NCBI RefSeq assembly: GCF_019798055.1
Contig: NZ_JAHOPH010000010.1
Span: 62,001-126,000 of the forward strand
DNA length: 64,000 nt
Source: Salsipaludibacter albus
GTDB taxonomy: Bacteria; Actinomycetota; Nitriliruptoria; Nitriliruptorales; Nitriliruptoraceae
Reading direction: 5' to 3'
In this document: one piece after another, positions 8,743 through 49,138 of the stretch
How the letters are laid out: each line of letters opens with the position of its first letter
Numbering within the stretch: the first letter of the stretch is position 1
The notes under the pieces: model-generated
What the model was told of the DNA's origin: nothing
What the model saw: only the letters and a program-made list of their open reading frames with translations
The model's database searches: none
Made by a program: the position numbers and the translations under genes

Positions 8743-8805
8743 GGATCTGCGTGGCCCCGGGCCACTGCTCTCCCCGAGATCTCGATCACCACACGAGGCA
8801 CACCC

Positions 8806-16520: not shown

Positions 16521-18659
16521 ATGACCACCCTCCCCCAGCCCCTCGACGTCGTCGAGGACTCGCTCGCCACGGCGATCGACGACCTCGCGCGACGCCTGCC
16601 CGAGCCACTCCGGCCCCTGGCCCAGGTGGCCTACAACTACCGCTGGTCGTGGACCCCCGGGGCCATCGACGTCTTCATGGCGGTGGACCCGGGCCGGTGG
16701 CACGCGGTGCACGCCAACCCGGTCCGCCTCCTGGTCGAGGCGTCCCCGACCCGGCTGGAGGCAGCCGCGGACGACCAGGAGCTGGTCGCCCGCATCGCCG
16801 CCCTCGCCGAGGAGCTCGACGACGACCTCGCGCGTCCCAGCATGGACGACTTCGACCCGTCGTCGCCCGTGACGTTCCTGTGTGCCGAGTTCGGCGTCCA
16901 CGAGTCCATGCCGCTGTACTCGGGTGGTCTCGGTGTCCTGGCGGGCGACATCCTCAAGGAGGCCTCGGACCTCGCACTGCCCATGGTGGCGGTCGGGCTG
17001 TTCTACCGGAACGGCTACTTCCAGCAGCGGCTCGACGCCAGTGGCTGGCAGGTCGAGTCGTGGCAGGCCACCGACCCCGCCCTGTCACCGATCGTCCCGC
17101 TGCGTCGTGACGGCGAGCAGGTCACGGTGACGGTGCCGATCCGTGGGACGGAGGCGACCGCCCGTGCCTGGGTGATCCAGGTCGGCCGCGTGCCGCTGCT
17201 CCTGCTGGACACCGACCTCCCGGAGAACTCGCCGGCCGCCCGGTGGACCACCGCCCGGCTCTACGACGGCAACGACGACGTCCGCCTGGCGCAGTACGCC
17301 ACGCTCGGGATCGGGGCCGTGCGCCTGCTCGACCGGTTGGGCGTCGAACCGTCGCTGCTCCACCTCAACGAGGGCCACGCCGCACTGGCCGCGGTCGAGC
17401 TGATCGCGCAGCGCGTGGCCGACGGCGCCGACTTCGACACCGCCCGCGATGCCGTGCGGGACCGCTGCGTGTTCACCACCCACACCCCGGTCGCCGCCGG
17501 CAACGAGACCTACCCGCCGGACGTGCTGGTGGCGGCGCTGCCGGGCCTGGGCGACCGCCTGGGCATCGGGTCCAACGGCCTGCTCAACCTCGGCCGCATC
17601 CAGCCCGGCGATCCGCACGAGCCGGCCGGGATGACCCCGATGGCGATGCGCCTGGCCCGCAACACCAACGGCGTGGCCAAGCGCCACGGCGAGGTCGCCC
17701 GCGGCATGTGGCAGCCACTGTTCGGTGGTGAGGTCGAGGACGTGCCGATCGGGCACGTGACCAACGGCGTCCACCTGCCGACCTGGATGGGCAACGAGTT
17801 CCGTGGGCTGCTGGACACCCACCTGGCCGAGGACTGGTGGCGTCGGGCCGACGACCCGGCCACCTGGGAGCCGGTGGCCGACATCCCGGCCGCCGACCTG
17901 TGGGCCGCACGCACGACGGCCCGGGCGAGCCTGGTCCGCTGGGCCCGCGAGGTCGCGGCCAGGGACCGCCTGCGTCGTGGGGACACCCTGGAGTGGGCGG
18001 AGCTCGGCATCACCGGGCTGTCCGAGGACGCCCTGACCCTGGGCTTCGCCCGTCGGGTCGCCGGCTACAAGCGCCTGTACCTGCTGACCCGCGACGTCGA
18101 CCGGATGGCCCGGCTCATGGGTGGCGACCAGCCCGTCCAGTTGTTGATCGCCGGCAAGGCCCACCCCAAGGACGACGGTGCCAAGGCGATGGTCCGGGAC
18201 CTGTTCGCCAACCGCGGACGTCCGGAGCTGGCCGAGCGGGTGTTCTTCCTCGAGGACTACGACATCGAGATCGGTCGCCGGCTGACCGCCGGCTGTGACG
18301 TGTGGGTCAACGTCCCGCGTCCCCCGATGGAGGCGTCGGGCACGTCGGGCATGAAGGTGGTGCTCAACGGTGGCCTGAACCTGTCGGTGCTGGACGGCTG
18401 GTGGGCCGAGGGCTACGACGGCACCAACGGCTGGGGCATCGACGGCGCCGTCGACGACGACCACGGTCGCCAGGACCACGAGCACGCCATGATGCTCTAC
18501 GACCTGCTCGAGCAGCAGGTCGTGCCGACCTTCCACGACCGCGACGACGACGGCATCCCCCAGGGCTGGGTCGCGATGATGCGATCGTCCCTGCAGACCC
18601 TCGGCCCCCAGTTCTGCGCCAGCCGGATGATGCACGACTACGCCGGCCAGGTGTACTGA
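16521..18659 (+). CDS. glgP: alpha-glucan (glycogen) phosphorylase
   Basis: 712 aa. Releases glucose 1-phosphate from the ends of alpha-1,4-glucan. It is the shorter alpha-glucan phosphorylase type known in mycobacteria and other bacteria. Visible signatures are FLCAEFGVHESMPLYSGGLG, HLNEGHAALA, TTHTPVAAGNE and the pyridoxal-phosphate region EASGTSGMKVVLNGG, in which Lys612 is the predicted PLP lysine. RRVAGYKR is the phosphate-site sequence. The ATG at 16521 opens the conserved N-terminus (LRPLAQVAYNYRWSW). It is coupled to glgX by proximity. Confidence 0.94.
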   Translation: MTTLPQPLDVVEDSLATAIDDLARRLPEPLRPLAQVAYNYRWSWTPGAIDVFMAVDPGRWHAVHANPVRLLVEASPTRLEAAADDQELVARIAALAEELDDDLARPSMDDFDPSSPVTFLCAEFGVHESMPLYSGGLGVLAGDILKEASDLALPMVAVGLFYRNGYFQQRLDASGWQVESWQATDPALSPIVPLRRDGEQVTVTVPIRGTEATARAWVIQVGRVPLLLLDTDLPENSPAARWTTARLYDGNDDVRLAQYATLGIGAVRLLDRLGVEPSLLHLNEGHAALAAVELIAQRVADGADFDTARDAVRDRCVFTTHTPVAAGNETYPPDVLVAALPGLGDRLGIGSNGLLNLGRIQPGDPHEPAGMTPMAMRLARNTNGVAKRHGEVARGMWQPLFGGEVEDVPIGHVTNGVHLPTWMGNEFRGLLDTHLAEDWWRRADDPATWEPVADIPAADLWAARTTARASLVRWAREVAARDRLRRGDTLEWAELGITGLSEDALTLGFARRVAGYKRLYLLTRDVDRMARLMGGDQPVQLLIAGKAHPKDDGAKAMVRDLFANRGRPELAERVFFLEDYDIEIGRRLTAGCDVWVNVPRPPMEASGTSGMKVVLNGGLNLSVLDGWWAEGYDGTNGWGIDGAVDDDHGRQDHEHAMMLYDLLEQQVVPTFHDRDDDGIPQGWVAMMRSSLQTLGPQFCASRMMHDYAGQVY

Positions 18660-20952: not shown

Positions 20953-22155
20953 TCAGCCGGCCGCGGCATCGATGTCGCGGGTGCGCAGCTTGCGGACCCG
21001 GACCTGGGCCCGGCGCTGGGCACGGGTCGGGATCATGTCGCGCATCTCCTCGAGCTTGCCGAAGCACAGCAGGCGGTCGCCCGGCTCCAGGACCCGGTTG
21101 CCTCGGGGGTTGGGGACCACGGTCGAGTCACGGTGCAGCGTCAGCACGCTGATGTCGCGCTCGCGCAGCCCGGACTGGGCCAGCGTCGTCCCGACCAGGT
21201 CGGCGCCCTCGCGCACGAGCAGTTCGGCCACGCCGTAGCCGGTCGAGACGCTCAGCCGCTGGTGCACGTCCAGCTGGGGGAACGCCACCTGGTTGTCGAT
21301 GTAGTCGATGATCGCGCCCGCGACGTCCAGCCGGGTCGCACGCTCGATCCCCTCCAGGCCCGGTGACGAATTCACCTCCATCACCAGCGGGCCGTCGTCA
21401 CCCTCCAGCATGTCCACGCCGGCCACCCGCAGCCCCATGATCTGGGCCGAGCGCACGGCGGTCGCGGTGTACTCGTCGTCCAGCTCGACGGCCTCCACCG
21501 ACCCGCCGCGATGGACGTTGGAGCGGAACTCGTCGCCCTGGGCGGTGCGACGCATCGCGGCCACCACCCGGTCGCCGATGACCAACGCCCGGATGTCACG
21601 ACCCTTGCTCTCGGTGATGAACTCCTGGATCAGGACGTTCTGGCGGGTGCTGTGCAGGGTCTCGATGATCGCCTCGGCGACCTTGGTGTCGGGCGCGAGG
21701 ATCACCCCGATGCCCTGGGTGCCCTCGAGCAGCTTGATGACCACCGGTGCGCCGCCGACCCGCTCGATGGCGGGCAGGACGTCCTTGCGGTCGCGGACGA
21801 ACGCCGTGGCGGGCATGCCCACCTCGTGGCGCGACAGGATCTGCATCGCCCGCAGCTTGTCCCGAGAGTTGGTGATGCCGTTGGCGGTGTTGGGCGTGTA
21901 GACGTCCATCTGCTGGAACTGGCGCAGGACCGCGGACCCGTAGTAGGTGATCGAGGCACCGATCCGGGGAAGGACGGCGTCGTAGTCCGACAGCCGGCGA
22001 CCGCGGAACTGCAGGTCGGGCTCGTCGCCTGACAGGTCGATCGCGAATCGCAGCGTGTCCAGCACCCGGCAGTCGTGGCCGCGCTCGAGCGCGGCGGTCT
22101 TGAGGCGCTGGGTGCTGTAGGCGGACGGGGCGCGGGAGAGGATGGCCAGCTTCAT
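20953..22155 (-). CDS. RimK-type ATP-grasp amino-acid ligase fused to an RCK_C (TrkA-C) domain
   Basis: 400 aa. Residues 1-290 are an ATP-grasp ligase of the RimK type: ITNSRDKLRAMQIL, GGAPVVIKLLEGTQGIGV, VLIQEFI and the metal-binding VMEVNSSPGLEGIE. RimK adds glutamate to protein C-termini (ribosomal protein S6) or joins other amino acids. Residues about 300-375 (GYGVAELLVREGADLVGT, VLEPGDRLLCFG) match the ligand-binding RCK_C domain known from potassium channels and transporters, not part of ordinary 300-aa RimK proteins. It is the last gene of a three-gene operon with 4-bp ATGA overlaps. The RCK_C part may sense a nucleotide or ion and gate the ligase; this is inference. Confidence 0.88.
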   Translation of the reverse strand: MKLAILSRAPSAYSTQRLKTAALERGHDCRVLDTLRFAIDLSGDEPDLQFRGRRLSDYDAVLPRIGASITYYGSAVLRQFQQMDVYTPNTANGITNSRDKLRAMQILSRHEVGMPATAFVRDRKDVLPAIERVGGAPVVIKLLEGTQGIGVILAPDTKVAEAIIETLHSTRQNVLIQEFITESKGRDIRALVIGDRVVAAMRRTAQGDEFRSNVHRGGSVEAVELDDEYTATAVRSAQIMGLRVAGVDMLEGDDGPLVMEVNSSPGLEGIERATRLDVAGAIIDYIDNQVAFPQLDVHQRLSVSTGYGVAELLVREGADLVGTTLAQSGLRERDISVLTLHRDSTVVPNPRGNRVLEPGDRLLCFGKLEEMRDMIPTRAQRRAQVRVRKLRTRDIDAAAG

Positions 22156-23330
22156 GGGGAGTCCGGTTCGGGGCGGTCGGTCGTGGTGCGATCGGTCGTG
22201 GTGTCGGGATCCGTCGTGCGGGGGTCCGACGTGGGTTCCGTGGTGCGGTCCGGGGCGGGCGGCACGCCGGGCGGGCCATCGGCGCCGTCGTGCTCGTCGA
22301 GGTCGGCGATGCGGGCGACGTGCACCAGTGCGTCGCCCTGGTGGCCGAGTGGGTGCTGCGTGTGGCCGATGATGATCCCGTCGAAGCGCGCCCGTGCCTG
22401 GGAGAGCCTGCGTCCGAGCGAGTCGTGCACGACCGCGACCCGCTCGCCCTTGGCCACGCGGTCGCCCAGTGCCACGTCCAGCGAGACGATGCCGCTCCGG
22501 CGTGCCCGGATCCAGGCGCTCTTGCGGCTGGCGACCGGCACGGGTGGCGGGGCGACCTCCACGCCGGAGTCCATGTCCAGGCGTGCCAGCACCCGGTGGA
22601 TGCCGTCCACCCCCGCGGTGATGGCCTGGGGGTCGAACCGGAGGGCCTCGCCGCCCTCGAACAGCAGGACGGTCTTGCCGGCGGCCGTGCCGGCGGCACG
22701 CAGGGACCCGTCCCGCACCCGGGCGTGCAGCATGACCGGGGCACCGAAGGCCTCGGCCAGGTCGCGGGTGCGGGGGTCGTCGAGGTCGCCCCGGACCTGG
22801 GGGAGGTTGGTGCGATGGTCCGACCCGGTGTGCAGGTCGATGCCCACGTCGCTGCGGGCCACGACCTCCTCCATGAACACGTGGGCGATCCGCGAGGCCA
22901 GCGACCCGGTCGCCGAGCCCGGGAACGACCGGTTCAGGTCCCGGCGGTCCGGCAGGTAGCGATCGCCGACCAGGAAGCCGTGGACGTTGACGATCGGCAC
23001 CATGATCACGGTCCCGGCGAGGCTGCGTGGGTCGAGGTCCTCGTTGACGCGGCGGATGATCTCGACGCCACCGATCTCGTCGCCGTGGATCGACGACGAG
23101 ATCCAGATCGTCGGGCCCTCGTGGCGCCCGTGCACGACCCGCAGGGGCAGGGAGATGCGGGTGCCGGTGACCAGCCGAGGCACGGGCAGCTCACCGGTCT
23201 CGCGACGTCCCGCGCGTACCTCGAGGTCCCCGATCCGGAACGGAGGTCGGCGTCGCAGTCCGGATCGCCGTCGGCGCGTCGGGGCCGGGTCCGACGACAG
23301 TGGCGGGGCCGGGGGCGGATCTTCGGTCAT
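22152..23330 (-). CDS. succinylglutamate desuccinylase/aspartoacylase-family zinc hydrolase
   Basis: 392 aa. Zinc ligands are visible as His82 and Glu85 in SSSIHGDEIGG and His167 in GIDLHTGSDH, and the catalytic Glu as Glu225 in LFEGGEALRF. This is the M14-like aspartoacylase family, which removes acyl or amino-acid groups from amide bonds. After residue 260 there is a barrel-sandwich-like segment (SGIVSLDVALGDRVAKGE), then a disordered Thr/Asp/Pro tail from about 345. The first 40 residues are basic. Its start overlaps the stop of the upstream retropepsin-like gene and its stop overlaps the start of rimK. It probably trims or reverses the modification made by the ligase. Confidence 0.88.
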   Translation of the reverse strand: MTEDPPPAPPLSSDPAPTRRRRSGLRRRPPFRIGDLEVRAGRRETGELPVPRLVTGTRISLPLRVVHGRHEGPTIWISSSIHGDEIGGVEIIRRVNEDLDPRSLAGTVIMVPIVNVHGFLVGDRYLPDRRDLNRSFPGSATGSLASRIAHVFMEEVVARSDVGIDLHTGSDHRTNLPQVRGDLDDPRTRDLAEAFGAPVMLHARVRDGSLRAAGTAAGKTVLLFEGGEALRFDPQAITAGVDGIHRVLARLDMDSGVEVAPPPVPVASRKSAWIRARRSGIVSLDVALGDRVAKGERVAVVHDSLGRRLSQARARFDGIIIGHTQHPLGHQGDALVHVARIADLDEHDGADGPPGVPPAPDRTTEPTSDPRTTDPDTTTDRTTTDRPEPDSP

Positions 23331-23791
23331 CGGTTGCGCCGTCGGATGTCGGCCGGCGGGCGGCCGCCGAGGTAGGAGCGTCCCGGGTCGACCACGAACC
23401 GCCCACGCAGTGCCTCGCGACCGACCAGCATCCGGAACCCCATCTCGTCACGGTTCGTCAGCGTGAGCTCGATGGGCGCCACCAGCCCGACCAGGTGCAG
23501 GTCGGTGTGCACGACCGGCCGGCGCTGGGTGTCTCCGCTGGACGAGCGGACCTCGCGATGGTCGACGACCGGCGCCTCGACCTGCACCGGGTCGTCGTCG
23601 GAGCCCTGCCACGGATGCAGCGAGAACCGGACCCACGGGGATCCGTCCCGGTCGAACGGCTCGAGGTCCCAGGCATGGATTGCCGAGGTCCGTGCGCCGG
23701 TGTCGACCTTCGCCTTCATGTGGTCCACACCCCAGTCGGGCAGTGCCACCCACTCGCGCCACCCGACGGCGACCGGAGCCCGCTCACCCAC
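23327..23791 (-). CDS. retropepsin-like protease of the RimB (ATP-dependent zinc protease, COG4067) family
   Basis: 154 aa. The motif KAKVDTGARTSAIHA with the catalytic-type DTGA (Asp30) and a later FRMLVGREALRGRFVVDPGRSYL match the family known as RimB or putative ATP-dependent zinc protease. In Pseudomonas a RimB of this family is encoded with rimK and modulates its glutamylation. It is the first gene of the operon with the aspartoacylase-like gene and rimK, with ATGA overlaps throughout. Transcription probably starts in the 142-bp spacer shared with ilvE upstream. Substrate unknown. Confidence 0.86.
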   Translation of the reverse strand: MGERAPVAVGWREWVALPDWGVDHMKAKVDTGARTSAIHAWDLEPFDRDGSPWVRFSLHPWQGSDDDPVQVEAPVVDHREVRSSSGDTQRRPVVHTDLHLVGLVAPIELTLTNRDEMGFRMLVGREALRGRFVVDPGRSYLGGRPPADIRRRNR

Positions 23792-26758: not shown

Positions 26759-26907
26759 GGCATCCTCACTGATGGCGGGTCGTTTGGTGTCGGCGAGCGT
26801 ACGAACCACCCTGTCGTGACGTCGTGTCCGTTCGGCCCCCCACGTCCCCCCACGTCCCCCGACGGCCCGCTGACGGGTCGTGCGACGTCGTCCGTCCAGG
26901 AGTTGCC

Positions 26908-27828
26908 ATGCAGTTGCACCCCGCCACCGAGGTCGAGCCGTGGGCCGGTCCGCCCGGTCCCGACGAGGTCGTGCGCCAGCGGGCCCAGCGGGATGCGGAG
27001 GCGGCCGCCGTGGCCGGCGAGCCCGTGGACGTCGCCGAGGTCGTGGCGCGCCGCATCGGTGGGGTCGACACGCGGGTGTACCTCCCACGCCGTGACCAGT
27101 CGTCGGCCTCGTCGGGGGCCGTCGTGTGGCTGCACGGGGGAGGCTGGGTGTTCGGCAGTCTCGAGACGGCCGACGGTGGCTGTCGGCGACTGGCCCGGGC
27201 CTCGGGGCTGGTGGTCGTGTCGGTCGACTACCGCCTGTCGCCGGAGCACGTGTGGCCGGCGGCGACCGACGACGGCGAGGCGGTCCTGGAGGCCCTGGCG
27301 ACCGGGGGCGACGACGTCGCCGACCTCGCGATCGACCCGGACCGGATCGTGGTCGCCGGGGACTCCGCCGGGGGGTTCCTGGCGGCGGTGCTGGCCCGCC
27401 GCGCCCGCGACGCCGGTCGTGACCTTGCCGGGCAGGCGCTGGTCTACCCGGTCGTGCAGCGAGCGGCGCTCGACGACCTCGCGGACGAGGCCGGGGACCC
27501 CGAGGGCCTGTCCGTGGCGGCCATGCGGTGGTACTGGGAGGCGTTCCTGGGAGCGGGCGGCCCGGATCCCGCCGGAGACCCGGACCTCGATCCCCTGGCC
27601 GCCGACCTGGTCGGGCTGCCGCCCGCGCTGGTCCTGACGGCCGAGCACGACATCCTGCGGGCCGAGGGCGAGCAGTACGCCCAGGCGCTCCAGTCCGCCG
27701 GGGTCGACGTCGTGAGCACCTGCTTCCAGGGCGTGCCACACGGGTTCTTCCGCCACCTCGCCACGCTGTCCGCCGCGGCGGTCGCCGTGGACCAGGTCGC
27801 CGCCTGGTGCGCGACCCGCGCCAGGTGA
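26908..27828 (+). CDS. alpha/beta hydrolase, hormone-sensitive-lipase family esterase
   Basis: 306 aa. The oxyanion motif HGGGW (76-80), the nucleophile elbow GDSAGG with Ser153, the acid Asp248 in AEHDILR and His278 in PHGF make a complete triad, as in the bacterial HSL/AB_hydrolase-3 family. The protein lacks a signal peptide. It hydrolyses short acyl esters; natural substrate unknown. The ATG at 26908 has AGGAG at 26898-26902. Single gene, convergent with the ATP-grasp gene 13 bp away. Confidence 0.92.
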   Translation: MQLHPATEVEPWAGPPGPDEVVRQRAQRDAEAAAVAGEPVDVAEVVARRIGGVDTRVYLPRRDQSSASSGAVVWLHGGGWVFGSLETADGGCRRLARASGLVVVSVDYRLSPEHVWPAATDDGEAVLEALATGGDDVADLAIDPDRIVVAGDSAGGFLAAVLARRARDAGRDLAGQALVYPVVQRAALDDLADEAGDPEGLSVAAMRWYWEAFLGAGGPDPAGDPDLDPLAADLVGLPPALVLTAEHDILRAEGEQYAQALQSAGVDVVSTCFQGVPHGFFRHLATLSAAAVAVDQVAAWCATRAR

Positions 27829-27841
27829 GAGCTCCGCGGGG

Positions 27842-29080
27842 TCAGCCAGGGGAGTGGTCGTGGCGCCACAGGTCGAGCAGGCCACGGAAGTGGGCCAGGA
27901 ACCGTTCGTGCTCGTGGTCGGGGTAGGTGGCGCGGACCGTGCGGACCAGCAGGTCGTCGAAGTCGGACGAGTCGACCCACTCCCGGACGAGCTCGTCGAC
28001 GTGGGGCAGGGAGGTGGCGCAGAACTCCTGGTAGCGCTCGGTGTCGAAGTGGCGGTCCGCGAGCTCGCCGTAGGCGGCGAGCCGGTCGGCCGACGTGCGG
28101 TCCGGGTCGTCGGCGATCGCGAACCAGTCGGGGGTCGACACGTGGGCGTCGAAGCGTCGGTCGGTGGCCAGGCAGAAGGCCGACCACCGCAGCAGCGCCG
28201 TCATCGCCCACGGGAAGTAGTAGTGCAGTGACGTCAGCGCGACGTCCGGGCAGGCGTTGGCGTAGTCGATCGGCATCAGCCGATCACCGGCGGCCAGCAT
28301 CTCGCACGAGTTGAACTCCCAGCGGAAGAAGGCGTTGACGGTCCGGGTGATCGCGATCGCGTCGCGGCCCGCCTCGGCCGACAGGAAGTCGTGCGCGACC
28401 TCGTAGCGCTCGTGCATCGGGCGCTCCGGCCGGAACTTCATCACCATCGTCTCGGGACCGATCGCCAGCGCCCGGACGAACACGTCGTAGTCGACCGCCT
28501 GCTGCAGGTGCATCAGCATCTCGCCGGAGGCGTCGTAGGCGGCCTGCAGGTCGTCGGGGCCCTCGATGCGCGACACGCCGCGCCAGCCGCCGCCGTCGAA
28601 GGGCTTCATGTACAGCGGGTAGCCCAGTTCCGCGGCGATCTCGGGCAGGTCGAAGGGCTCGTTGTAGTGGTCTGCGGTGTAGGCCCAGCGGACGTTGTCG
28701 ACCGGGTTCTTGTAGGGGACGAGCACGGTCTCGGGGACGTCGAGGCCCAGCCGGATCATCGCGCAGTAGGCCGCGTGCTTCTCCATCGACTGGAACGTGA
28801 ACGGCGAGTTCAACAGGTAGACGTCGTCCATCAGCGCGACCTTCTTGAGCCACTCGCGCGGGTGGTAGTACCAGTGGGCGAGCCGGTCGATGACGAGGTC
28901 GTGGCGGGCCGGGTCGCGCAGCGAGAAGGGGGTGATCCGGACCCGCTCGGTGTCCATCCGGTGGTCGTTGCCGGCATGGGTGAACACGCCCAGCCGCTGG
29001 GCGAGGACCTCGAAGGCATGTGGCCAGTCCTCCTCCGTGCCGAGCAGCAGTCCTACGAGGTGGTCGTCAACGTCGCTCAC
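27842..29080 (-). CDS. ATP-grasp-fold ligase-like protein
   Basis: 412 aa. The segment LYMKPFDGGGWRGVSRI is a recognisable ATP-grasp nucleotide-binding loop, and a long C-terminal helical half follows (MVMKFRPERPMHERYEV, WEFNSCEMLAAGDRLMPIDYANACPDVA, where the metal-binding residues would sit). The exact family is not certain; the reaction would be formation of an amide or ester from a carboxylate and an amine with ATP. It is the last gene of a three-gene unit with two esterase-like genes upstream, 42 bp from the second, on the same strand. This conserved-looking partnership suggests a modifying and demodifying pair. Confidence 0.75.
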   Translation of the reverse strand: MSDVDDHLVGLLLGTEEDWPHAFEVLAQRLGVFTHAGNDHRMDTERVRITPFSLRDPARHDLVIDRLAHWYYHPREWLKKVALMDDVYLLNSPFTFQSMEKHAAYCAMIRLGLDVPETVLVPYKNPVDNVRWAYTADHYNEPFDLPEIAAELGYPLYMKPFDGGGWRGVSRIEGPDDLQAAYDASGEMLMHLQQAVDYDVFVRALAIGPETMVMKFRPERPMHERYEVAHDFLSAEAGRDAIAITRTVNAFFRWEFNSCEMLAAGDRLMPIDYANACPDVALTSLHYYFPWAMTALLRWSAFCLATDRRFDAHVSTPDWFAIADDPDRTSADRLAAYGELADRHFDTERYQEFCATSLPHVDELVREWVDSSDFDDLLVRTVRATYPDHEHERFLAHFRGLLDLWRHDHSPG

Positions 29081-29122
29081 GTCGTGCTCCGGATCGGGGG
29101 GGTTCGGGATGGGTGGCGCGGG

Positions 29123-29878
29123 TCAGCAGAACCGGGGGAGGTGGTGGGCGAGCTGGCGCTGCCACCACGGCCAGTCGTGCGCGGCGTCGTGGCCCCACAC
29201 GTCCAGCTCGTGGCGGATGCCCTTGTCGGCCAGCAGGTCGGCGAACGCCCGGGTCGACGGCAGCGAGCCCGTCGGGTCGACCTCCCAGGCGCCCTGGCCC
29301 ACCACCAGCAGGAGGCTGACGTGCTCGCGCAGCCAGTCGAGGTGGTCGCCGTGCAGGTTCGCGACATAGGCGGTCGGGTTGGCGAAGTAGGTGGCCTCGC
29401 CGGGCGGCCCCCAGGCACGCCAGCGCTCGACGTCGTAGTTTCCCGACAGCCCGATCGCCAGCGGCACGAGGTCGGGACGCTGCAGGGCCAGGTGGACGGC
29501 GTGGTAGGCGCCCATGCTGCAGCCCAGCGCCAGGGGTTCGGCCCCGTCGCTGTCGTCGGCCACGAACGGCAGCAGTCGGGTCACGACCCAGTGGTGGTAG
29601 GCCCCGTGGCGGCGCGCCCGCTCCTCGACGTCGACGTCACGGTCCGACCACGAGAACGCGTCGAGCGAGTCGACGCAGTACAGCTTGACCCGTCCTGCCT
29701 CGACCAGGTCACCGACGGCATCCACCATGCCGTTGTCGGCGAAGTCCCACGCCCGGCCGGCCTCGGACGGGAACACGATCACCGGTCGCCCGAAGTGGCC
29801 GTGGACCTGGACCGACAACGACGCCCCGTGGTCGAACAGTGGTCCCTCCAGGGGCAGGTCCAGATGGCGCGGGCTCAT
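29123..29878 (-). CDS. esterase-like alpha/beta hydrolase (short)
   Basis: 251 aa. The nucleophile elbow LGCSMGAYHA carries Ser121 and the His is likely in WGHDAAHDW near residue 230-237. The fold resembles the PF00756 esterase family (mycolyltransferase/enterochelin esterase-like), but it lacks a signal peptide, so it would act in the cytoplasm. The ATG overlaps the end of the upstream esterase gene by four bases. It is middle gene of the esterase-esterase-ATP-grasp unit. Confidence 0.83.
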   Translation of the reverse strand: MSPRHLDLPLEGPLFDHGASLSVQVHGHFGRPVIVFPSEAGRAWDFADNGMVDAVGDLVEAGRVKLYCVDSLDAFSWSDRDVDVEERARRHGAYHHWVVTRLLPFVADDSDGAEPLALGCSMGAYHAVHLALQRPDLVPLAIGLSGNYDVERWRAWGPPGEATYFANPTAYVANLHGDHLDWLREHVSLLLVVGQGAWEVDPTGSLPSTRAFADLLADKGIRHELDVWGHDAAHDWPWWQRQLAHHLPRFC

Positions 29879-30951
29879 GGGGTCTCCTCGTCGCCGGACG
29901 CCGGCGGGTCGCCCGGCCCGCCCCAGGTCCGGACGAGCAGGTCGCCCAGTCCGGGTTCGAGCCCGTCACGCCACGCGGTGTAGTTGTGGAGGTCGTCGAG
30001 GTCGTGCAGCACGACGTCGTGTCCGACCGCACGCAGGGTCGCGGCCATGGCGACGTTGTTGGCGTGGTTCTCCTCGCGACGCCCGCAGGTCAGGACCACG
30101 TCCAGCCGGTCCTCGGTCACCACGTCGGTGTCGCGCTCGGCGACCCAGCCGCTGACCCGGTCGAAGTGGGGATAGGCGCCCTCCTGGGGGTCGAGCTCGG
30201 GACGGAAGAAGGACCCGGACTGGGAGAACACCCCCCGTGTCGCCACGCCGCCGGCCAGCGCCACCTGCAGTGCGGCCAGTCCGCCCAGGCTGGCGCCCAT
30301 GGTCACCAGCGCCCCACGGCGGGGTCGGCGTCGGTCCGCCTCGGCGACGACGGCCGTGACCGCGTCCGGCCAGCGGGGGTTGACCGCGTACCACGCGTCG
30401 CGCTCGACGGGTTGGAGCAGGGCCATCCGGAAGCGGGGGAGCCGCCCGGTCGCGACGGTGCTGGCGGCCCACTGGCCCAGCCCGGCGAGCCGGTCGTACT
30501 CGGGGCCGTCGTGGACGACCAGGAGCGGGGCCGGGGTGGTGTCGGGGAGGTCGGCCGGGAACCAGGTCGTGACCGGGACGTCGCCCACGACCGTCGGGAC
30601 CAGGTCGTGGTGGCGCACGGCCTCGACCCCGGGTTCGTCCAGCCAGGCCGGCGGCTCGTAGCCGGGCAGGAGGGCGACGCTGCGGTCACCGAACGCCGTG
30701 GCGACCCGCTCCGGGTTGTCGGGGTCGAGCACGACCTGTGCCGCGCCGTGGTCGTCGGTCACCAGGAACCGGTACTCGAGTCGTCCCAGCGGTGGCAACG
30801 GGATCGCCAGGCGCCACCCGTCGGCGGTGCGGCGGAAGCGGTGGTCGGCGACCAGGTCGTCGTCGACCTCCAGCCGGACCATGGCGAGGTGGTGCTCGGG
30901 GTCGTCGACCGCGAACACCAGCCGGTCGTCGGCGACGGTCGGGGCACCCAT
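29875..30951 (-). CDS. enterochelin-esterase-like hydrolase
   Basis: 358 aa. The N-terminal about 110 residues look like the beta-sandwich that precedes the catalytic domain in Fes-type esterases (RLEYRFLVTDDHG, DPDNPERVATAFGDRS), and the C-terminal 230 residues hold GASLGGLAAL with Ser221 and LTCGRREENHANN with a final HNYTAWR where the catalytic His would be. It is related to siderophore (enterochelin) esterases, but no siderophore gene is nearby. It overlaps the following gene by 4 bp, and leads the unit. The ATG lies 18 bp from the NYN-gene stop. Confidence 0.85.
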   Translation of the reverse strand: MGAPTVADDRLVFAVDDPEHHLAMVRLEVDDDLVADHRFRRTADGWRLAIPLPPLGRLEYRFLVTDDHGAAQVVLDPDNPERVATAFGDRSVALLPGYEPPAWLDEPGVEAVRHHDLVPTVVGDVPVTTWFPADLPDTTPAPLLVVHDGPEYDRLAGLGQWAASTVATGRLPRFRMALLQPVERDAWYAVNPRWPDAVTAVVAEADRRRPRRGALVTMGASLGGLAALQVALAGGVATRGVFSQSGSFFRPELDPQEGAYPHFDRVSGWVAERDTDVVTEDRLDVVLTCGRREENHANNVAMAATLRAVGHDVVLHDLDDLHNYTAWRDGLEPGLGDLLVRTWGGPGDPPASGDEETP

Positions 30952-30969: not shown

Positions 30970-31422
30970 TCAGGGGTGGTCGTCCGACGACGACGCCGAG
31001 GACTCCGACGTGGTCGGGGACGGGGTCGGCAGCCGTGCGAGCAACGAGGTCGGACCGACCACCGCGGCACCCCGGGCCCGGACCCGCTCGGCGAGCCGCC
31101 GGTCGGCCGTCACGACCGTGGCCGGCGTGTCGGACGTGCCCACCAGGTCGACGATCCGGTCGTCGGCGGCGTCGCGCCCCCGACCGGCGTGGTGGACCTC
31201 CACGCCGTCGACCACGCCGTCGGGCAGGCGCTCGTCCGGGGTCCCGTCCACCACGGCCGTGATCCGTTCCCCGGAGGTGTCCGCCAGCAGTGCCAGTCGT
31301 CGGACCAGCCCCGCCGCCGCACCGGTCCGGTCACGCCACCAGCCGTCGGGCCGGGAGCCGACGACGTTCATGACGTCGACCAGCAGCCACGGCCGCTCGT
31401 CCCGCTCGTCGTGGTCGTCCAC
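30970..31422 (-). CDS. NYN/PIN-like nuclease-domain protein
   Basis: 150 aa from a GTG at 31422. The opening WLLVDVMNVVGSRPDGWWRDRTGA, the acidic VVDGTPD and RDAADDRIVDLVG, and VVTADRRLAERVRARGA match the NYN (YacP-like PIN) fold, with Asp residues for metal-dependent RNA cleavage. The C-terminal 30 residues are Ser/Asp-rich. The start was set at the GTG just after a GGAGGACGAG stretch, because longer versions would include arginine-rich sequence that is poorly coding. It is downstream of the thiamine transporter ATPase (59 bp) and could be the last gene of that operon, though it has no thiamine role I know. Confidence 0.75.
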   Translation of the reverse strand: MDDHDERDERPWLLVDVMNVVGSRPDGWWRDRTGAAAGLVRRLALLADTSGERITAVVDGTPDERLPDGVVDGVEVHHAGRGRDAADDRIVDLVGTSDTPATVVTADRRLAERVRARGAAVVGPTSLLARLPTPSPTTSESSASSSDDHP

Positions 31423-31481
31423 CTCGTCCTCCTCGACACCCGTCCTGCGTCGTGCGCCCGCCGCGATCCGGGCGTCGTGCC

Positions 31482-32576
31482 TCAGTCCACCGCGAGCGCC
31501 CGCCACGCCTCGTCGGGGACCCGGACGGCGACGGCGTCGTCGTCCGCCGGCATGGCGTGGATCGGCCCGGTGGCACGCACGACGATCGGACCCGTGCCCG
31601 TCTCCACCTCGTCGAGTGCCACGTCGACGGCGACGTGGTCGCCGGCGAAGTGGCGCGCCACGACGTGTCCGGTCCACGACGTCGCGCCGTCGGTGGCGCG
31701 CGGGGTCGTGGGCAGGTCCGTGTCGACCTCGACCCGGGCGGCGTCCACGCCGACCAGCGCCGGGTGGCCGAGGGTCGCGAGGATCCGCTCGTCCAGCGGC
31801 AGGTGGGGATGGTCGTCGTCGGCGTCGGCCCGGGTCGTGGCGAACACGTCGTGCCAGCCCAGGAACCGGGCCACGAACGCGGTCCGGGGGTCGTCCCAGA
31901 GCGCACCTGGCGGGTCCAGCCGGACGATCCTGCCCGCGTCCATGACCGCGACCCGGTCGGCGACGGCCAGTGCCTCGTCCTGGTCGTGGGTGACGTGCAC
32001 GACGGCGGCGTCGACGGCCGCGAACACCTCGGGGAGCTCGGCGAGCAGTCGGTCGCGCAGGCGCCGGTCCAGCGACGACAGTGGTTCGTCGAGCAGCAGC
32101 AGTCGTGGCTGGGGGGCGATCGCGCGTGCCAGCGCCACGCGCTGGGCCTGCCCTCCCGAGAGCGCGTCGACCCGCCGGTCACCCAGGCCCGCCAGCCCGA
32201 CCAGTTCGAGGACCTCGTCGATCCTGGCGCGACGCCGATCCGGCGCCCACCCCCGCATCCGCAGGCCGAAGCCGACGTTGTCGCCGACGTCGAGGTGCGG
32301 GAACAGCGCGCCGTCCTGGAACATCAGTCCGGTGTCGCGCTGGTCCGGGCGACGGCGCGACACGTCCTGGCCGTCGACCAGGACGCGCCCGGCGTGGGGG
32401 ACCAGCCCGGCGATCGCCGCGAGCAGGGAGGACTTGCCACAGCCGGAGGGTCCCAGCAGGGCGACCACCTCGCCCGGGGCCACGGCGAGGTCGACGTGGT
32501 CGACCGCCAGCACGGCCCCGTAGCGCACCGCGACGTCCTCGACCGCCAGCCGCGCCGCCACCTCCGAGCCCGTCAC
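31482..32576 (-). CDS. ABC transporter ATPase of the thiamine importer
   Basis: 364 aa. Walker A GPSGCGKS (42-49), signature LSGGQAQR (139-146), Walker B LLLLDEPLSSLD, and a long C-terminal regulatory domain of the TOBE type (to residue 364). Similarity in layout to ThiQ/FbpC/PotA-type ATPases of binding-protein importers. It is the third transporter part after ThiB and the fused permease, under the upstream TPP riboswitch. GGGAGG precedes the GTG start. The spacer to the permease gene holds a tandem hairpin repeat (32602-32811). Confidence 0.9.
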   Translation of the reverse strand: MTGSEVAARLAVEDVAVRYGAVLAVDHVDLAVAPGEVVALLGPSGCGKSSLLAAIAGLVPHAGRVLVDGQDVSRRRPDQRDTGLMFQDGALFPHLDVGDNVGFGLRMRGWAPDRRRARIDEVLELVGLAGLGDRRVDALSGGQAQRVALARAIAPQPRLLLLDEPLSSLDRRLRDRLLAELPEVFAAVDAAVVHVTHDQDEALAVADRVAVMDAGRIVRLDPPGALWDDPRTAFVARFLGWHDVFATTRADADDDHPHLPLDERILATLGHPALVGVDAARVEVDTDLPTTPRATDGATSWTGHVVARHFAGDHVAVDVALDEVETGTGPIVVRATGPIHAMPADDDAVAVRVPDEAWRALAVD

Positions 32577-32601
32577 GCTCCCACCTCCCCGTCACCAGCA
32601 T

Positions 32602-32811
32602 GGTGTGCCGTTCCCGTGCTTCGCGGCACGGCACCAGCACACGATCCTCCGAGGGTGCTGGCGGGGATCGCGGGCTTGCGGACACGGTGTGCGGTTCCCG
32701 TGCCTGTTGGCACGGCACCAGCACACGATTCCCCGTGGGAGGTGGCATGGGTCGCGGGGGGATGGACATGGTGTGCGGTTCCCGTGCCTGTTGGCACGGC
32801 ATCAGCACACG
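32602..32811. repeat. three 84-bp-spaced tandem hairpin units between permease and ATPase genes
   Basis: Three copies of a 42-bp element (starts at 32602, 32686, 32770) are exactly 84 bp apart. Each carries an inner stem of CCGTGCC and GGCACGG with a 4-base loop in copies 2 and 3 (a variant, CGTGC/GCACG, in copy 1) and an outer GTGTGC with GCACAC. The 42-bp segments between copies are also similar (about 27 of 42 identical by eye). This is an intercistronic spacer, so on the mRNA it would form three hairpins. Function unknown: mRNA stability, regulator or repeat element are all possible. Confidence 0.85.
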
Positions 32812-32838
32812 CTCGTCGCGGGGCGGGTGCGGCCGGCA

Positions 32839-34560
32839 TCAGAAGGCTCCCAGGTCGGCGACGCGGAGCCGGTCGACGGCGGCGACGACCACGATGGTCA
32901 CGACCATCAGGATGCAGCTCATCGCCATGGCCCGCCCGAGGTTGATCGCTCCCGGCTGGCCGAGCAGCCGGTAGATCGCGACCGGTATGGTCGGGCTGGT
33001 GGCCCGGGCGATGAACACGGTCGCGCCGAACTCGCCCAGCGAGATGGCGAAGGCGAAGCCCGCGGCCACGGTCGCGGACCGGAACAGGATCGGCAGGTCG
33101 ACGTGGCGCCAGGTCCCGGTGGGCGAGGCGCCGAGCACCGCGGCGGCCTGGCGGAGCCGGTCGTCGATCGCCTCCAGGGCCGGCACCAGGATCCGCACCA
33201 CGAACGGGATCGCGACCAGCGCCTGGGCCAGCGGCACCAGGATCGGTGACGCTCGCAGGTCCAGCGGCGGGGTGTCCAGCGTGATCAGGAACCCGAACCC
33301 GACCGTGACGGCCGACACCCCCAGCGGCAGCATCAGCAGCAGGTCGAACGCCCGGCCCCAGGTGGAGCGCCGTCGCCGGGTGATCGCGACGGCCGCGGCC
33401 CCGCCCACGACCGTGGCGACCGCGGCCGCTGCCACGGCGAACACCAAGGACGTCCGCACCGCCTCCCACGGCGCGACCGCCAGCACCGAGTCGGTATCGG
33501 CCAGGGCCCGGTACCACGCCAGCGAGTGCCCGTCGGCCGTGGCGAGCGAGCGCTCCACCAGGACGGCGATCGGCAGCCCGATCACGACCGCCATCAGCAG
33601 CACGGTCGCGCCGACGCCCGCCCACTGCAGCCCACGTGGACGCTGGAGCCCCCGATGGGCGGCCGTGGTGATGCCCGACGAGCCGGCCCGGTCCCGGCCG
33701 AGCCGGGCGTTGACAAGCAGGGCGGCGGCGACCGCCACGACCTGCAGCAGCGCCAGCGTGGACGCCTGCGGCAGGTCCAGCAACTGCGCCGTCGCTCGGT
33801 AGATCGCGACCTCCAGCGTCGCCATCCCGGGTGCGCCGAGGATCAGCACGATCCCGAACGAGGTGAACGTGAACAGGAACGTGATCGCGCTGGCGGCCGT
33901 GATCGCCGGTCGCAGCAGCGGCAGGGTGACCGTGCGGAACGCCTGCCACGGACTGGCACCCAGCGACCGGGCCGCCCGGACCAGTCGTGGGTCGAGGTTG
34001 GACCAGCGTCCCCCGACGGTGCGCACCACCACGGCGACGTTGAAGAACACGTGGGCGAGCAGGACCGCGGCCAGGGTCTGGGTCAGGCGGGGCGGGGCGT
34101 CCAGTCCGAACAGCCCGGCGATCCACGCCATCACCGGCGACCCCGACCCGAGCAGTCCGGTGAAGGCGCTGGCCACCACCACCGTCGGCAGCACGAACGG
34201 CACCGTCACCGCCGCGCGGAACAGCGTGCGTCCGGGGACGTCGACCCGGGCAACCAGCCAGGCCCCCGGGAGCCCGACGGCCAGGGTCAGCACGGTGGAC
34301 AGCACTGCCTGCCAGGTCGAGAACCACAGCACCCGCCGGGTGGTGGGCGCGAGCAGGACGTCGAGCGCGTCGCCACCCGCACCCGCCTCGGTCAGCCCGG
34401 TGGCGATGATGGTGCCCACCGGCCACACGAACAGGACGGCGAAGAACACCGCCGGCACCGCCACGGTCGCGACCCGCCACCCGGTCGGGAGCGTCCGCGT
34501 GATCGCGCGGGCCGCGTCGGGCACGTCGGACCCGTGGGACGGAGCGGCCGGGGTCGTCAC
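32839..34560 (-). CDS. thiP: thiamine ABC transporter permease (fused, ThiP type)
   Basis: 573 aa from GTG 34560. Two homologous permease halves (about 12 membrane helices), each with an EAA-type loop: LVRAARSLGASPWQAFRTVTLPLL and LRQAAAVLGASPTGTWRHVDLPIL. A single fused permease is typical of ThiP and the iron importer FbpB. The ligand is inferred as thiamine from the TPP riboswitch and thiamine diphosphokinase at the head of the operon. GTG 34560 is the only start near the membrane part; it overlaps the stop of a 15-codon ORF that begins in the thiB stop (see 34557-34604). Confidence 0.9.
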   Translation of the reverse strand: MTTPAAPSHGSDVPDAARAITRTLPTGWRVATVAVPAVFFAVLFVWPVGTIIATGLTEAGAGGDALDVLLAPTTRRVLWFSTWQAVLSTVLTLAVGLPGAWLVARVDVPGRTLFRAAVTVPFVLPTVVVASAFTGLLGSGSPVMAWIAGLFGLDAPPRLTQTLAAVLLAHVFFNVAVVVRTVGGRWSNLDPRLVRAARSLGASPWQAFRTVTLPLLRPAITAASAITFLFTFTSFGIVLILGAPGMATLEVAIYRATAQLLDLPQASTLALLQVVAVAAALLVNARLGRDRAGSSGITTAAHRGLQRPRGLQWAGVGATVLLMAVVIGLPIAVLVERSLATADGHSLAWYRALADTDSVLAVAPWEAVRTSLVFAVAAAAVATVVGGAAAVAITRRRRSTWGRAFDLLLMLPLGVSAVTVGFGFLITLDTPPLDLRASPILVPLAQALVAIPFVVRILVPALEAIDDRLRQAAAVLGASPTGTWRHVDLPILFRSATVAAGFAFAISLGEFGATVFIARATSPTIPVAIYRLLGQPGAINLGRAMAMSCILMVVTIVVVAAVDRLRVADLGAF

Positions 34561-34604
34561 GACCCGGACCGTCCGCTGGCGGCGTGCCCGGTCGGGTCGC
34601 TCAT
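34557..34604 (-). other. 15-codon ORF linking thiB stop to thiP start
   Basis: ATG at 34604 overlaps the thiB stop TGA (ATGA), and its own TGA overlaps the thiP GTG (GTGA). The would-be peptide reads MSDPTGHAASGRSGS. It could relay ribosomes from thiB to thiP, or mark a frame slip near the thiP start. Direct proof is not possible here. Confidence 0.4.
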
Positions 34605-35767
34605 CCGAGCACGATCTCGGTCCAGCGCTGCACCAGCTCCTCGCGCCGGTCGTCGATGGTGGCCGGGTCCATCGTGATCGGGTCGTCGGGGACCGCGCTG
34701 TACTCGACGAACTCGGGAGGCAGTTCGACGTCGGTCCGCGCCGGGAACACGAACATCTGCAGGGGGATGTCGGCCTGGAACTCGGGCTGGACCATGAAGT
34801 CGACCAGGGCCCGTGCCCCGGCCTCGTTGTCGGTGCCGGCCAGCACGCCGGCAAACTCGACCTGCTGGAAGCACGACGCCGTGATCACCCCGGTCGGGGC
34901 CTCGTCCAGCTCCTCCTCGGCGAAGATCACCTCGGCCGGTGGGCTGGAGGCGTACGACACGACAAGCGGCCGGTCGCCCTCGGAGCCCGCCGCACCGGAG
35001 AACACGCCGTAGTAGGCGTCCTCCCAGCCCGCGCTGACCGCGACGTCGTTGGCGACCAGGTCCTCCCAGTACTGCTCCCAGCCGTCCTCGCCGAACGTGC
35101 TGTAGGTGGCCAGCAGGAAGGCCAGGCCCGGCGACGACGTCGCAGGGTTCTCCACGACCAGCTGGCCGGCGTAGTCCGGCTCGGTGAGGTCGTCGAGCGT
35201 GCTCGGCGGCTCGCCGTCGGTGTAGGCCGACACGTCGTAGTTGAGGCAGACGTCGCCACGGTCGATCGGGGTCACCCGCCACTGGTCGTCCAGCACCAGG
35301 GCGGGGTCCAGCGCGTCGGCCTCGGCCGGCTCGTGCGGGACGAACACCTCGGCGTCGAGGGCACGCGACAGCAGGGTGTTGTCGACCCCGAACAGGACGT
35401 CGCCCTGGGGGTTGCCGGCGGTGAGCACGGCCGCGTTGACCGTCGCGCCCGCGTCGCCCGAGCGCAGGACCTCGACCTCGTAGCCGGTCTGGTCGGTGAA
35501 GGCCGCGAGCACGTCGTCGCTGATCGCGAACGAGTCGTGGGTCACCAGCTGCACGGCCGGGTCCTGCGGCGTCGTCGGCGCGTCGGAGGGGTCGGTCGAC
35601 GCGGTGGCTGCCTCGGTGGCGCCGGAGGGCTCGGGAGGCGCATCCGGGTCGTCGGCGGCCTCACCGGCGCAGGCGCTGGCGAGGAGCGCGACGGCGGCGG
35701 CGACGGCCGCGAGTCGGAGGCCGCGTCCGCGGGTGGGGCGTCGATGGCGGGGGAGGGACTGGTCCAT
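34601..35767 (-). CDS. thiB: thiamine ABC transporter substrate-binding lipoprotein
   Basis: 388 aa from the ATG at 35767. Lipobox LASAC with Cys33, an Ala/Pro/Ser/Thr linker, then a periplasmic-binding-protein type II fold with the ThiB/iron-binding-protein pattern (VQLVTHDSFAISDDVLAAFTDQTGYEV, GDVCLNYD). It delivers the ligand to the fused permease. Its 3' end is within 50 bp of thiP. Thiamine is inferred from context. It follows thiN by 60 bp. Confidence 0.9.
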   Translation of the reverse strand: MDQSLPRHRRPTRGRGLRLAAVAAAVALLASACAGEAADDPDAPPEPSGATEAATASTDPSDAPTTPQDPAVQLVTHDSFAISDDVLAAFTDQTGYEVEVLRSGDAGATVNAAVLTAGNPQGDVLFGVDNTLLSRALDAEVFVPHEPAEADALDPALVLDDQWRVTPIDRGDVCLNYDVSAYTDGEPPSTLDDLTEPDYAGQLVVENPATSSPGLAFLLATYSTFGEDGWEQYWEDLVANDVAVSAGWEDAYYGVFSGAAGSEGDRPLVVSYASSPPAEVIFAEEELDEAPTGVITASCFQQVEFAGVLAGTDNEAGARALVDFMVQPEFQADIPLQMFVFPARTDVELPPEFVEYSAVPDDPITMDPATIDDRREELVQRWTEIVLG

Positions 35768-35827
35768 GGTGTGGGTCCTGGTGGGTGTCGGGCGGACCGC
35801 CGGCGGGGACACCGGCGTCGCGTCGAC

Positions 35828-36484
35828 TCAGCGCCCGGGTTGGACGGCCAGCAGCGTGCCGGCCTCGATGGTGACCCGGGCCTCCGGAGCGACGAGCTCG
35901 TTGGACACCCCACGACTGGAACCCGGGACGAGCGACTCGTCCGACAGCTGGTACAGCAGGCCGGTGGTCGCGATGCCGTCCACCCGGCCGAAGACCGGCA
36001 GCAGCGTGACCACGTCACCGACCGAGCCACGCAGCTCGCGCGCGTCGGTGATGACCGACACGACCGCCTGCGTGGTCACGACCGTGACCCGGGCGTGCCG
36101 CGCGGCACGGGCCGCCACGAGCACGTTGGCAAGCTGGTGGTCGAACCGGTCACCGCCCCCGTCGCACACCACGATGTGGCGCGCGCCCCCCGCCAACGCC
36201 AGGTCCAGCGCGAGGTCGAGGTCGGTTGCGTCCTTGTCGGTGCTGTGGCGGCGGACGTCGATGCCCGCTGCGACCGCCCGGGAGACCTGCTCCGGGTCGA
36301 CCGAGTCGAGGTCACCGACGAGCACGTCGACGTCGAGGTCGAGCCGATCCGCGAGCGCCAGGCCCTGGTCGGCAGCGATGACACGGACGTCGTCCGCGGA
36401 GTCGGGGAGGTGCGCGGCGAACCGCGCGAGCGCCAACACGGTGGTCACGTCGCCACCGGCGGTGATCACCGCGGTCGACACCAT
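35828..36484 (-). CDS. thiN: thiamine diphosphokinase
   Basis: 218 aa. Makes TPP from imported thiamine and ATP. Signature blocks IAADQGLALADRL, VGDLDSVDPEQV and STDKDATDLDLALDLAL are those of the TPK family, with the dyad HQLANVLVAARAA after. The ATG at 36484 lies directly behind the TPP riboswitch, the start of the operon thiN-thiB-thiP-thiQ-like. This organisation means salvage of thiamine from outside, controlled by intracellular TPP. Conserved length for the family. Confidence 0.93.
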   Translation of the reverse strand: MVSTAVITAGGDVTTVLALARFAAHLPDSADDVRVIAADQGLALADRLDLDVDVLVGDLDSVDPEQVSRAVAAGIDVRRHSTDKDATDLDLALDLALAGGARHIVVCDGGGDRFDHQLANVLVAARAARHARVTVVTTQAVVSVITDARELRGSVGDVVTLLPVFGRVDGIATTGLLYQLSDESLVPGSSRGVSNELVAPEARVTIEAGTLLAVQPGR

Positions 36485-48770: not shown

Positions 48771-48789
48771 CCTGACGCACTGAACCGGC

Positions 48790-48826
48790 CGCGGGCCGTC
48801 GATCCGATCGGGGTCGACGGCCCGCG
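48790..48826 (+). terminator. terminator of the 1566-aa surface-protein gene
   Basis: Stem CGCGGGCCGTCGA with TCGACGGCCCGCG (13 bp) and an 11-base loop, 19 bp after the stop. Only a short TCGTCT follows. Confidence 0.8.
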
Positions 48827-48831
48827 TCGTC

Positions 48832-48866
48832 TGTGCGCACGTGCGGGACGGGTCGGCGTGCGCACA
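48832..48866. other. second hairpin in the spacer
   Basis: TGTGCGCACG pairs with CGTGCGCACA, 10 bp perfect, loop 15. The TGTGCG core recalls the hairpin repeats at 32602 and 39800. The rest of the 368-bp spacer (48771-49138) shows only promoter-like boxes. Confidence 0.65.
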
Positions 48867-48978
48867 GCGAACGCGACCTGCGAGCCCACCAGGTCGCCGA
48901 AATCGCCGCAGGAAGGAACCCCGGCGTCTGGACACCGCCATTGACCACCTCTCGTGACGTCTGGGTGTTCGTGGCTGG

Positions 48979-49006
48979 TTGCGAGGGCGAGGACGACGGC
49001 TAAGTT
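48979..49006 (+). promoter_or_regulatory. candidate promoter of the 2801-aa gene
   Basis: TTGCGA (48979-48984) and TAAGTT (49001-49006) with 16 bp between them fit a sigma-70 type promoter, 133 bp before the ATG at 49139. Confidence 0.4.
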
Positions 49007-49138
49007 CGTGTCGGACTACCGGGTCGTGGCCGACTCGACGGGGCGGTCGCGCCTCTCGTGCCCACGGCACAGCGTGTTTCACGCGGGTGGTCCATGCGTG
49101 CTTGTTGTTGCGCCGGGTCGCCGGCCGGAGGGGAACAC

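Follow-up and report, generated by a model that had tools for sequence, protein, structure and literature searches.

We analysed a 64,000-nucleotide stretch of the genome of the actinobacterium Salsipaludibacter albus (contig NZ_JAHOPH010000010.1, positions 62,001–126,000, forward strand; hereafter 'the window', meaning this whole stretch), which carries on its minus strand a unit of three closely spaced genes for two predicted serine hydrolases and an ATP-grasp ligase-like protein. The order in the unit is a 358-amino-acid, two-domain hydrolase resembling the enterochelin esterase Fes (Fes-like; window positions 29875–30951), a 251-amino-acid hydrolase of the PF00756 family that lacks the second domain (the short esterase; 29123–29878) and the 412-amino-acid ATP-grasp protein (27842–29080), whose gene starts with GTG. 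As originally predicted, the three open reading frames (ORFs) lie at these positions and the first two overlap by 4 base pairs (bp); a gap of 42 bp separates the short esterase gene from the ATP-grasp gene. The latter is present in a single copy in the 4.25 megabase (Mb) host genome, where the window lies on contig 2. None of the three proteins of this cassette has a signal-peptide-like start on inspection by eye, from which we infer that they are cytosolic. Promoter and terminator scans of the unit were uninformative in either direction. We found no trace of a defence origin (no PADLOC match for eight proteins at an E-value of 0.01) or of a phage origin (no PHROGs match for the three cassette proteins); the viral contigs searched contained no relative, and the plasmids searched gave no ATP-grasp-A match.

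Conservation and co-inheritance of the unit

The ATP-grasp gene and the genes for the two PF00756-related hydrolases show joint inheritance and in most cases form a single compact unit. Profile scanning of contigs with the ATP-grasp protein confirmed at least 561 relatives among at least 588 pattern matches, and we compared the surroundings of the best-scoring 80 of these relatives, which are not a random sample. Among the 72 loci with at least 3 kilobases (kb) of sequence upstream of the ATP-grasp gene, same-strand genes for both hydrolases were found upstream in 37, for the short esterase only in 11, for the Fes-like protein only in 17 (mostly Actinoplanes and its relatives) and for neither in 7. 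The eight loci with less upstream sequence had both hydrolases in three cases, the esterase in two and neither in three. Both the short esterase and the ATP-grasp ORFs were called in 53 loci, and in 48 of these the distance between the two genes is between -4 and 114 bp. The closest named relative among the matches listed comes from a metagenome-assembled genome of Nitriliruptorales (locus L052), with an ATP-grasp protein that is 77% identical and with neighbouring genes that are also common to both. Two Nonomuraea loci (L128 and L131) have no hydrolase gene upstream, and there the ATP-grasp gene directly follows a gene that, judged by eye, looks like DUF2252.

The same association is seen at the level of whole genomes. 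In 296 genomes sampled evenly across the phylum, the ATP-grasp protein was counted in 24 (those kept at E < 1e-25 from 86 matched at E 0.001), the short esterase in 23 (kept at E < 1e-30 from 27) and the Fes-like protein in 20 (those of 25 matched with E no higher than 1e-18). The 62 ATP-grasp matches that were dropped are short and fall mostly on residues ~140–190, one of them (genome G076) being possibly a fragment. The ATP-grasp protein and the short esterase occur together in 21 genomes and all three proteins in 20, against about two expected per pair; the hypergeometric values for these counts ignore relatedness, and the pattern is repeated within the window's own class, in which seven of the 27 genomes have both ATP-grasp and esterase, one ATP-grasp only, none the esterase only and 19 neither (Fisher test, 9e-6). 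The arrangement of the three genes is well beyond chance. Thus, linkage and co-occurrence both bear out the original prediction of genes that are kept together elsewhere as a conserved unit of an uncharacterised pathway.

Several other genes of the window do not share this distribution. A gene for a YacP-like NYN domain protein (30970–31677, minus strand; PF05991, 25.1 bits) lies 18 bp upstream of the Fes-like gene, and a hormone-sensitive-lipase-type (HSL) esterase gene (26824–27828, plus strand) is convergent with the ATP-grasp gene. At positions 20953–23791, on the minus strand, the window also carries overlapping genes, in this order, for a RimK-like ligase with a TrkA_C domain, an AspA/AstE-type deacylase and a RimB/RloA-type retropepsin, which form a second ligase–hydrolase unit about 4 kb from the cassette. 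When the window's YacP, HSL esterase, AspA, RimB and ArsR genes were considered as further cassette members, they were found near the ATP-grasp gene in only one of the 80 loci (L052), and the RimK gene in none of the 80. The YacP-like gene and the HSL esterase gene are therefore probably outside the cassette.

The two hydrolases and the ATP-grasp protein

The short esterase is a member of the PF00756 family (47.3 bits against a cut-off of 22), and its profile matches the CE1 feruloyl and acetylxylan esterases and antigen 85 (PDB entry 6ne9 at 3e-9, 7b5v and Ag85C). Its putative catalytic triad, assigned, like that of the Fes-like protein, from conservation, consists of S121 (66 of 69 sequences), E199 (68 of 69) and H234 (69 of 69). 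The profile match and the conserved triad are shared with the CE1 esterases, whereas the window protein stands alone beside ATP-grasp ligases.

The Fes-like protein scores just below the PF00756 cut-off (21.5 bits) and, with 60.0 bits in the enterochelin esterase model PRK10439, far below the NCBIfam cut-off of 222 bits for that equivalog, so that by its sequence it is best described as Fes-like rather than called a Fes. PF11806 gave a match only in the relative at locus L138 (25.5 bits, below its cut-off of 27.1). Residues S221, E293 and H322, the putative triad, are each conserved in 68 of 68 sequences. The AlphaFold model (mean predicted local distance difference test score, pLDDT, 91.7) consists of an N-terminal beta-sandwich followed by an alpha/beta hydrolase domain and matches the ferric enterobactin esterase structure 3mga with a Z score of 29.6 over 335 residues (residues 1–347, 22% identity); the next structural matches, at Z of about 24, are CBM48-CE1 carbohydrate esterases. 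Thus, the protein has the two-domain architecture and the conserved S-E-H residues of Fes (PRK10439; PDB entries 3mga and 3c8d) but is only 22% identical to it, falls below the equivalog cut-off and is adjoined by an ATP-grasp gene, and most of the genomes that bear the cassette lack siderophore biosynthesis.

The full-length, two-domain match to Fes raises the question of whether the enzyme opens imported ferric catecholates with the help of its neighbours. We consider this very unlikely, given the equivalog score and the lack of any siderophore gene in the unit. Among the 20 genomes with all three proteins, the condensation domain of non-ribosomal peptide synthetases (PF00668) is absent from 16, including the host genome, and present in four, and IucA/IucC (PF04183) is absent from all 20, again including the host, in searches that addressed siderophore biosynthesis rather than the use of foreign siderophores. 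The original observation that no siderophore genes are nearby also holds: the closest ATP-binding cassette (ABC) transporter system in the window (31482–35812, minus strand) includes a binding protein of the thiamine type (TIGR01254, 226 bits) and adjoins a thiamine diphosphokinase gene, the system and this gene lying within 31482–36484. A siderophore role of the cassette is, then, unlikely.

The 412-amino-acid protein has no Pfam match at an E-value of 0.01, and only its residues ~140–190 give weak local matches to Ddl and biotin-carboxylase models. Its AlphaFold model (pLDDT 86.6) has an ATP-grasp fold. The structures closest to it are those of the amide ligase RimK, at Z scores of 20.3–21.0 over residues 7–308 (265 residues at a root-mean-square deviation of 2.7 for the top match); LysX and ArgX follow at Z 18.5–18.7. 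No variation was seen at K159, G163, G164, E260, D272 or N275 in any of the 17 A1 rows or the 38 A2 rows. The modelled fold together with this set of a lysine, two acids and an asparagine places the protein in the ATP-grasp superfamily, and the candidate ligase residues K159, E260, D272 and N275 look intact; a lack of ligase residues, which would have counted against the original prediction, was thus not encountered. With RimK, LysX and ArgX the protein shares the ATP-grasp fold over ~260 residues, the glycine-rich stretch and the acid-acid-Asn pattern. It differs from them in having no significant sequence match or Pfam model, in a helical C-terminal extension of about 100 residues (~310–408) and in the spacing of its last motif, D-x-x-N as against E-x-N in RimK, a difference of one residue. 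The RimK family models themselves do not recognize it: TIGR00768 is not among its seven NCBIfam matches and PF08443 gives no match at an E-value of 0.01.

Could the protein be a small-molecule kinase of the ITPK/PPIP5K type instead of a ligase? Inositol-phosphate kinases match the same model at Z 17.6–18.8, with the best of them only about 2 units below RimK. We nevertheless regard a kinase as improbable: the RimK match is the higher one, the other partners in related clusters (see below) are ligases, and esterases next to a kinase would make little sense.

Variant clusters and the type of bond

Several genomes carry related clusters in which the two hydrolases, or one of them, are joined by further genes. 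At loci L138, L139, L143, L144 and L153, the Fes-like and short esterase genes are found with a Peptidase_S51-type gene and additional ATP-grasp genes, which we have labelled families B and C; when the S51-type protein was used as a query, it matched in 5 of the 15 genomes tested, which are exactly those of these five loci. At L140 (7845–13126) and L145 (6501–10594), a gene for a shorter ATP-grasp relative (29–30% identity) is followed by CP_ATPgrasp_2-like and GCS2 genes; the short esterase gene is directly upstream in L145, and in L140 it faces the cluster together with the Fes-like gene. A GCS2 gene coding for 500 amino acids (GCS2-long) adjoins the ATP-grasp gene at L083, L100, L108 and L129. 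Hence at least two families of carboxylate-amine ligases are present per cluster in L140 and L145 and, with GCS2-long, in these four loci, and not in the window unit. At L146 and L154, which belong to one genus, a longer relative of the short esterase adjoins ATP-grasp B; the L146 protein (8800–10248) has an Ala/Lys/Pro-rich tail of ~230 residues. On plasmids of Peptoclostridium, Pararhizobium and Sinorhizobium the ATP-grasp B and short esterase genes are adjacent (3 of 14 esterase records), and a Massilia plasmid has ATP-grasp B beside aminotransferase and methyltransferase genes.

GCS2-long was also considered as a general missing partner of the cassette and rejected. It was matched in 50 of the 296 genomes (47 of them at E < 1e-80) and was adjacent to the ATP-grasp gene only in the four loci named; it was also absent from all sampled genomes of family f6, 10 of which have the ATP-grasp protein.

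The original prediction assumed an ester-linked product, which our data do not support. Instead, the RimK-like fold, the S51-type gene and the precedent of linked ligases suggest an amide or peptide-like product, as do the variant clusters with their added ATP-grasp, GCS2, CP_ATPgrasp_2-like and Peptidase_S51 genes. Where ATP-grasp and other COOH-NH2 ligases are linked, they often catalyse successive peptide ligations, according to PMC4431377; as in the linked amidoligase operons known from that paper, the variant loci cluster several unrelated carboxylate-amine ligases with hydrolases, whereas the window unit has a single ligase.

We hold it slightly likelier to be right than wrong that a cytosolic ligase and two hydrolases act here on one acyl group or conjugate, either in its turnover or in the release of a precursor. 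In such a scheme, the ATP-grasp enzyme would phosphorylate a carboxylate and pass the acyl group to an amine (or, less likely, to a hydroxyl), so that the product would be a small conjugate of the amide or peptide-like kind. The short esterase, which is seen beside several different ATP-grasp types, and the Fes-like enzyme would act on the same acyl group, opening the conjugate or releasing the acid used by the ligase. The additional amide ligases of the related clusters (GCS2, the circularly permuted ATP-grasp and two more ATP-grasps) and the S51-type protein may extend this scheme.

An ester (depsi-type) bond formed by the ATP-grasp protein and opened by the two esterases appears rather unlikely to us. 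ATP-grasp enzymes that form esters are known, namely the D-Ala-D-Lac ligases, and both hydrolases are related to PF00756, the Fes-like one aligning along its whole length with a trilactone esterase; graspetide omega-esters, too, are formed by ATP-grasp enzymes, as stated in PMC8939145. Against an ester speak the fold match to an amide ligase and the amide ligases and peptidase-family gene that the variant clusters bring in; nothing in the data points to an ester beyond the name 'esterase'. That name leaves the bond unfixed, since enzymes acting on thioesters and acyltransferases are found in PF00756 as well. The further claim that the product of the ligase is opened by both esterases cannot be a fixed rule because some loci keep one hydrolase or none.

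Another alternative is a one-way route with no turnover of the product: the hydrolases would cleave an ester or thioester to supply a carboxylic acid, which the ATP-grasp enzyme would then join to an amine. Single-hydrolase loci are common (28 of 72), as would be expected if the hydrolases take alternative precursors, and the gene order hydrolase-hydrolase-ligase fits as well, but we saw no acyl-carrier or precursor-forming gene among the conserved neighbours, and this route, although a serious contender, is in our opinion probably not the correct one. A graspetide cluster, that is, one for a ribosomally synthesized and post-translationally modified peptide (RiPP) whose precursor is macrocyclised by the ATP-grasp enzyme, is hardly credible. 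Some graspetide loci have been reported with ATP-grasp and possible alpha/beta hydrolase genes (PMC8939145), but the spacings of 42, -4 and 18 bp within and just upstream of the window unit, where relatives are similarly tight, leave no room for a precursor gene within the unit, to which this comparison was confined.

Several observations count against the favoured reading of a ligase with two hydrolases acting on one conjugate. The fold alone cannot separate ligases from kinases, as inositol-phosphate kinases reach Z 18.8 with the same model; when the ATP-grasp protein was aligned by profile (hhalign) with the RimK of the window, the probability was a non-significant 0.1 percent; and K159, E260, D272 and N275 are the nucleotide-binding lysine and the metal ligands only on our assumption that the general ATP-grasp pattern applies. 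The genes that supply the amide context elsewhere are absent from the window unit: no match to the S51-type protein turned up in the host genome, and the host's GCS2 gene lies on another contig than the cassette. Of the 14 plasmid-borne relatives of the short esterase, 11 have no ATP-grasp-B match beside them. Finally, neither hydrolase is encoded upstream in 10 of the 80 loci (three of these with less than 3 kb upstream), and genome G050 has the ATP-grasp protein without either hydrolase.

Genomic surroundings and implications

The window also contains genes of alpha-glucan (glycogen) metabolism, all on the plus strand: a maltokinase-like gene (46–999), glgB (1053–2978), glgX (14284–16455) and the alpha-glucan phosphorylase gene glgP (16521–18659), the last at 9.2 kb from the cassette. 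Similar genes are found near the cassette in three other lineages: in the Knoellia/Phycicoccus group and genome G139 the cassette lies beside a TreS-Mak-GlgB-GlgE cluster, in G222 it lies inside a GlgC/GlgA/GlgB/GlgP cluster and in G099 a GlgC gene is about 9 kb away. Alpha-glucan genes were present in 4 of 21 cassette stretches and in none of 40 control stretches of 20 kb, taken at fixed spacing from four genomes (Fisher p 0.011), in a post hoc comparison whose queries came from the cassette loci themselves and which counts stretches of the same genome or clade as if they were independent. Of the 80 named loci, 16 had an alpha-glucan match, nearly all of them in one clade. This proximity, together with the two-domain build that the Fes-like protein shares with CBM48-CE1 carbohydrate esterases, would fit a cassette that attaches acyl or aminoacyl groups to alpha-glucans, or to a sugar intermediate of glycogen metabolism, and takes them off again. 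We regard this as a long shot, and the proximity as a weak lead only; if it were true, bacterial glycogen would carry an acyl mark that is set by an ATP-grasp enzyme and regulated, a type of chemistry new for storage polymers.

Farther along the window (44070–57544, plus strand), in its part of lower guanine-plus-cytosine content, are two very long, secreted-looking ORFs of 1566 and 2801 amino acids, the first of which has a match to surface-anchored repeats.

The enzyme classes encoded by the cassette are known, and it is their combination that appears to be new: our literature search found no description of the trio, nor of a Fes/PF00756 pair with an ATP-grasp protein. If the reading of a ligase with its own hydrolases is right, the cassette would represent an undescribed cytosolic conjugation step common to hundreds of actinobacteria (at least 561 relatives), with a related pair form that extends to Clostridia and Rhizobiaceae. 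Genes resembling those for 'enterochelin esterase' in organisms that make no siderophores would then need another label, and the co-inheritance of the three genes makes this reading directly testable.

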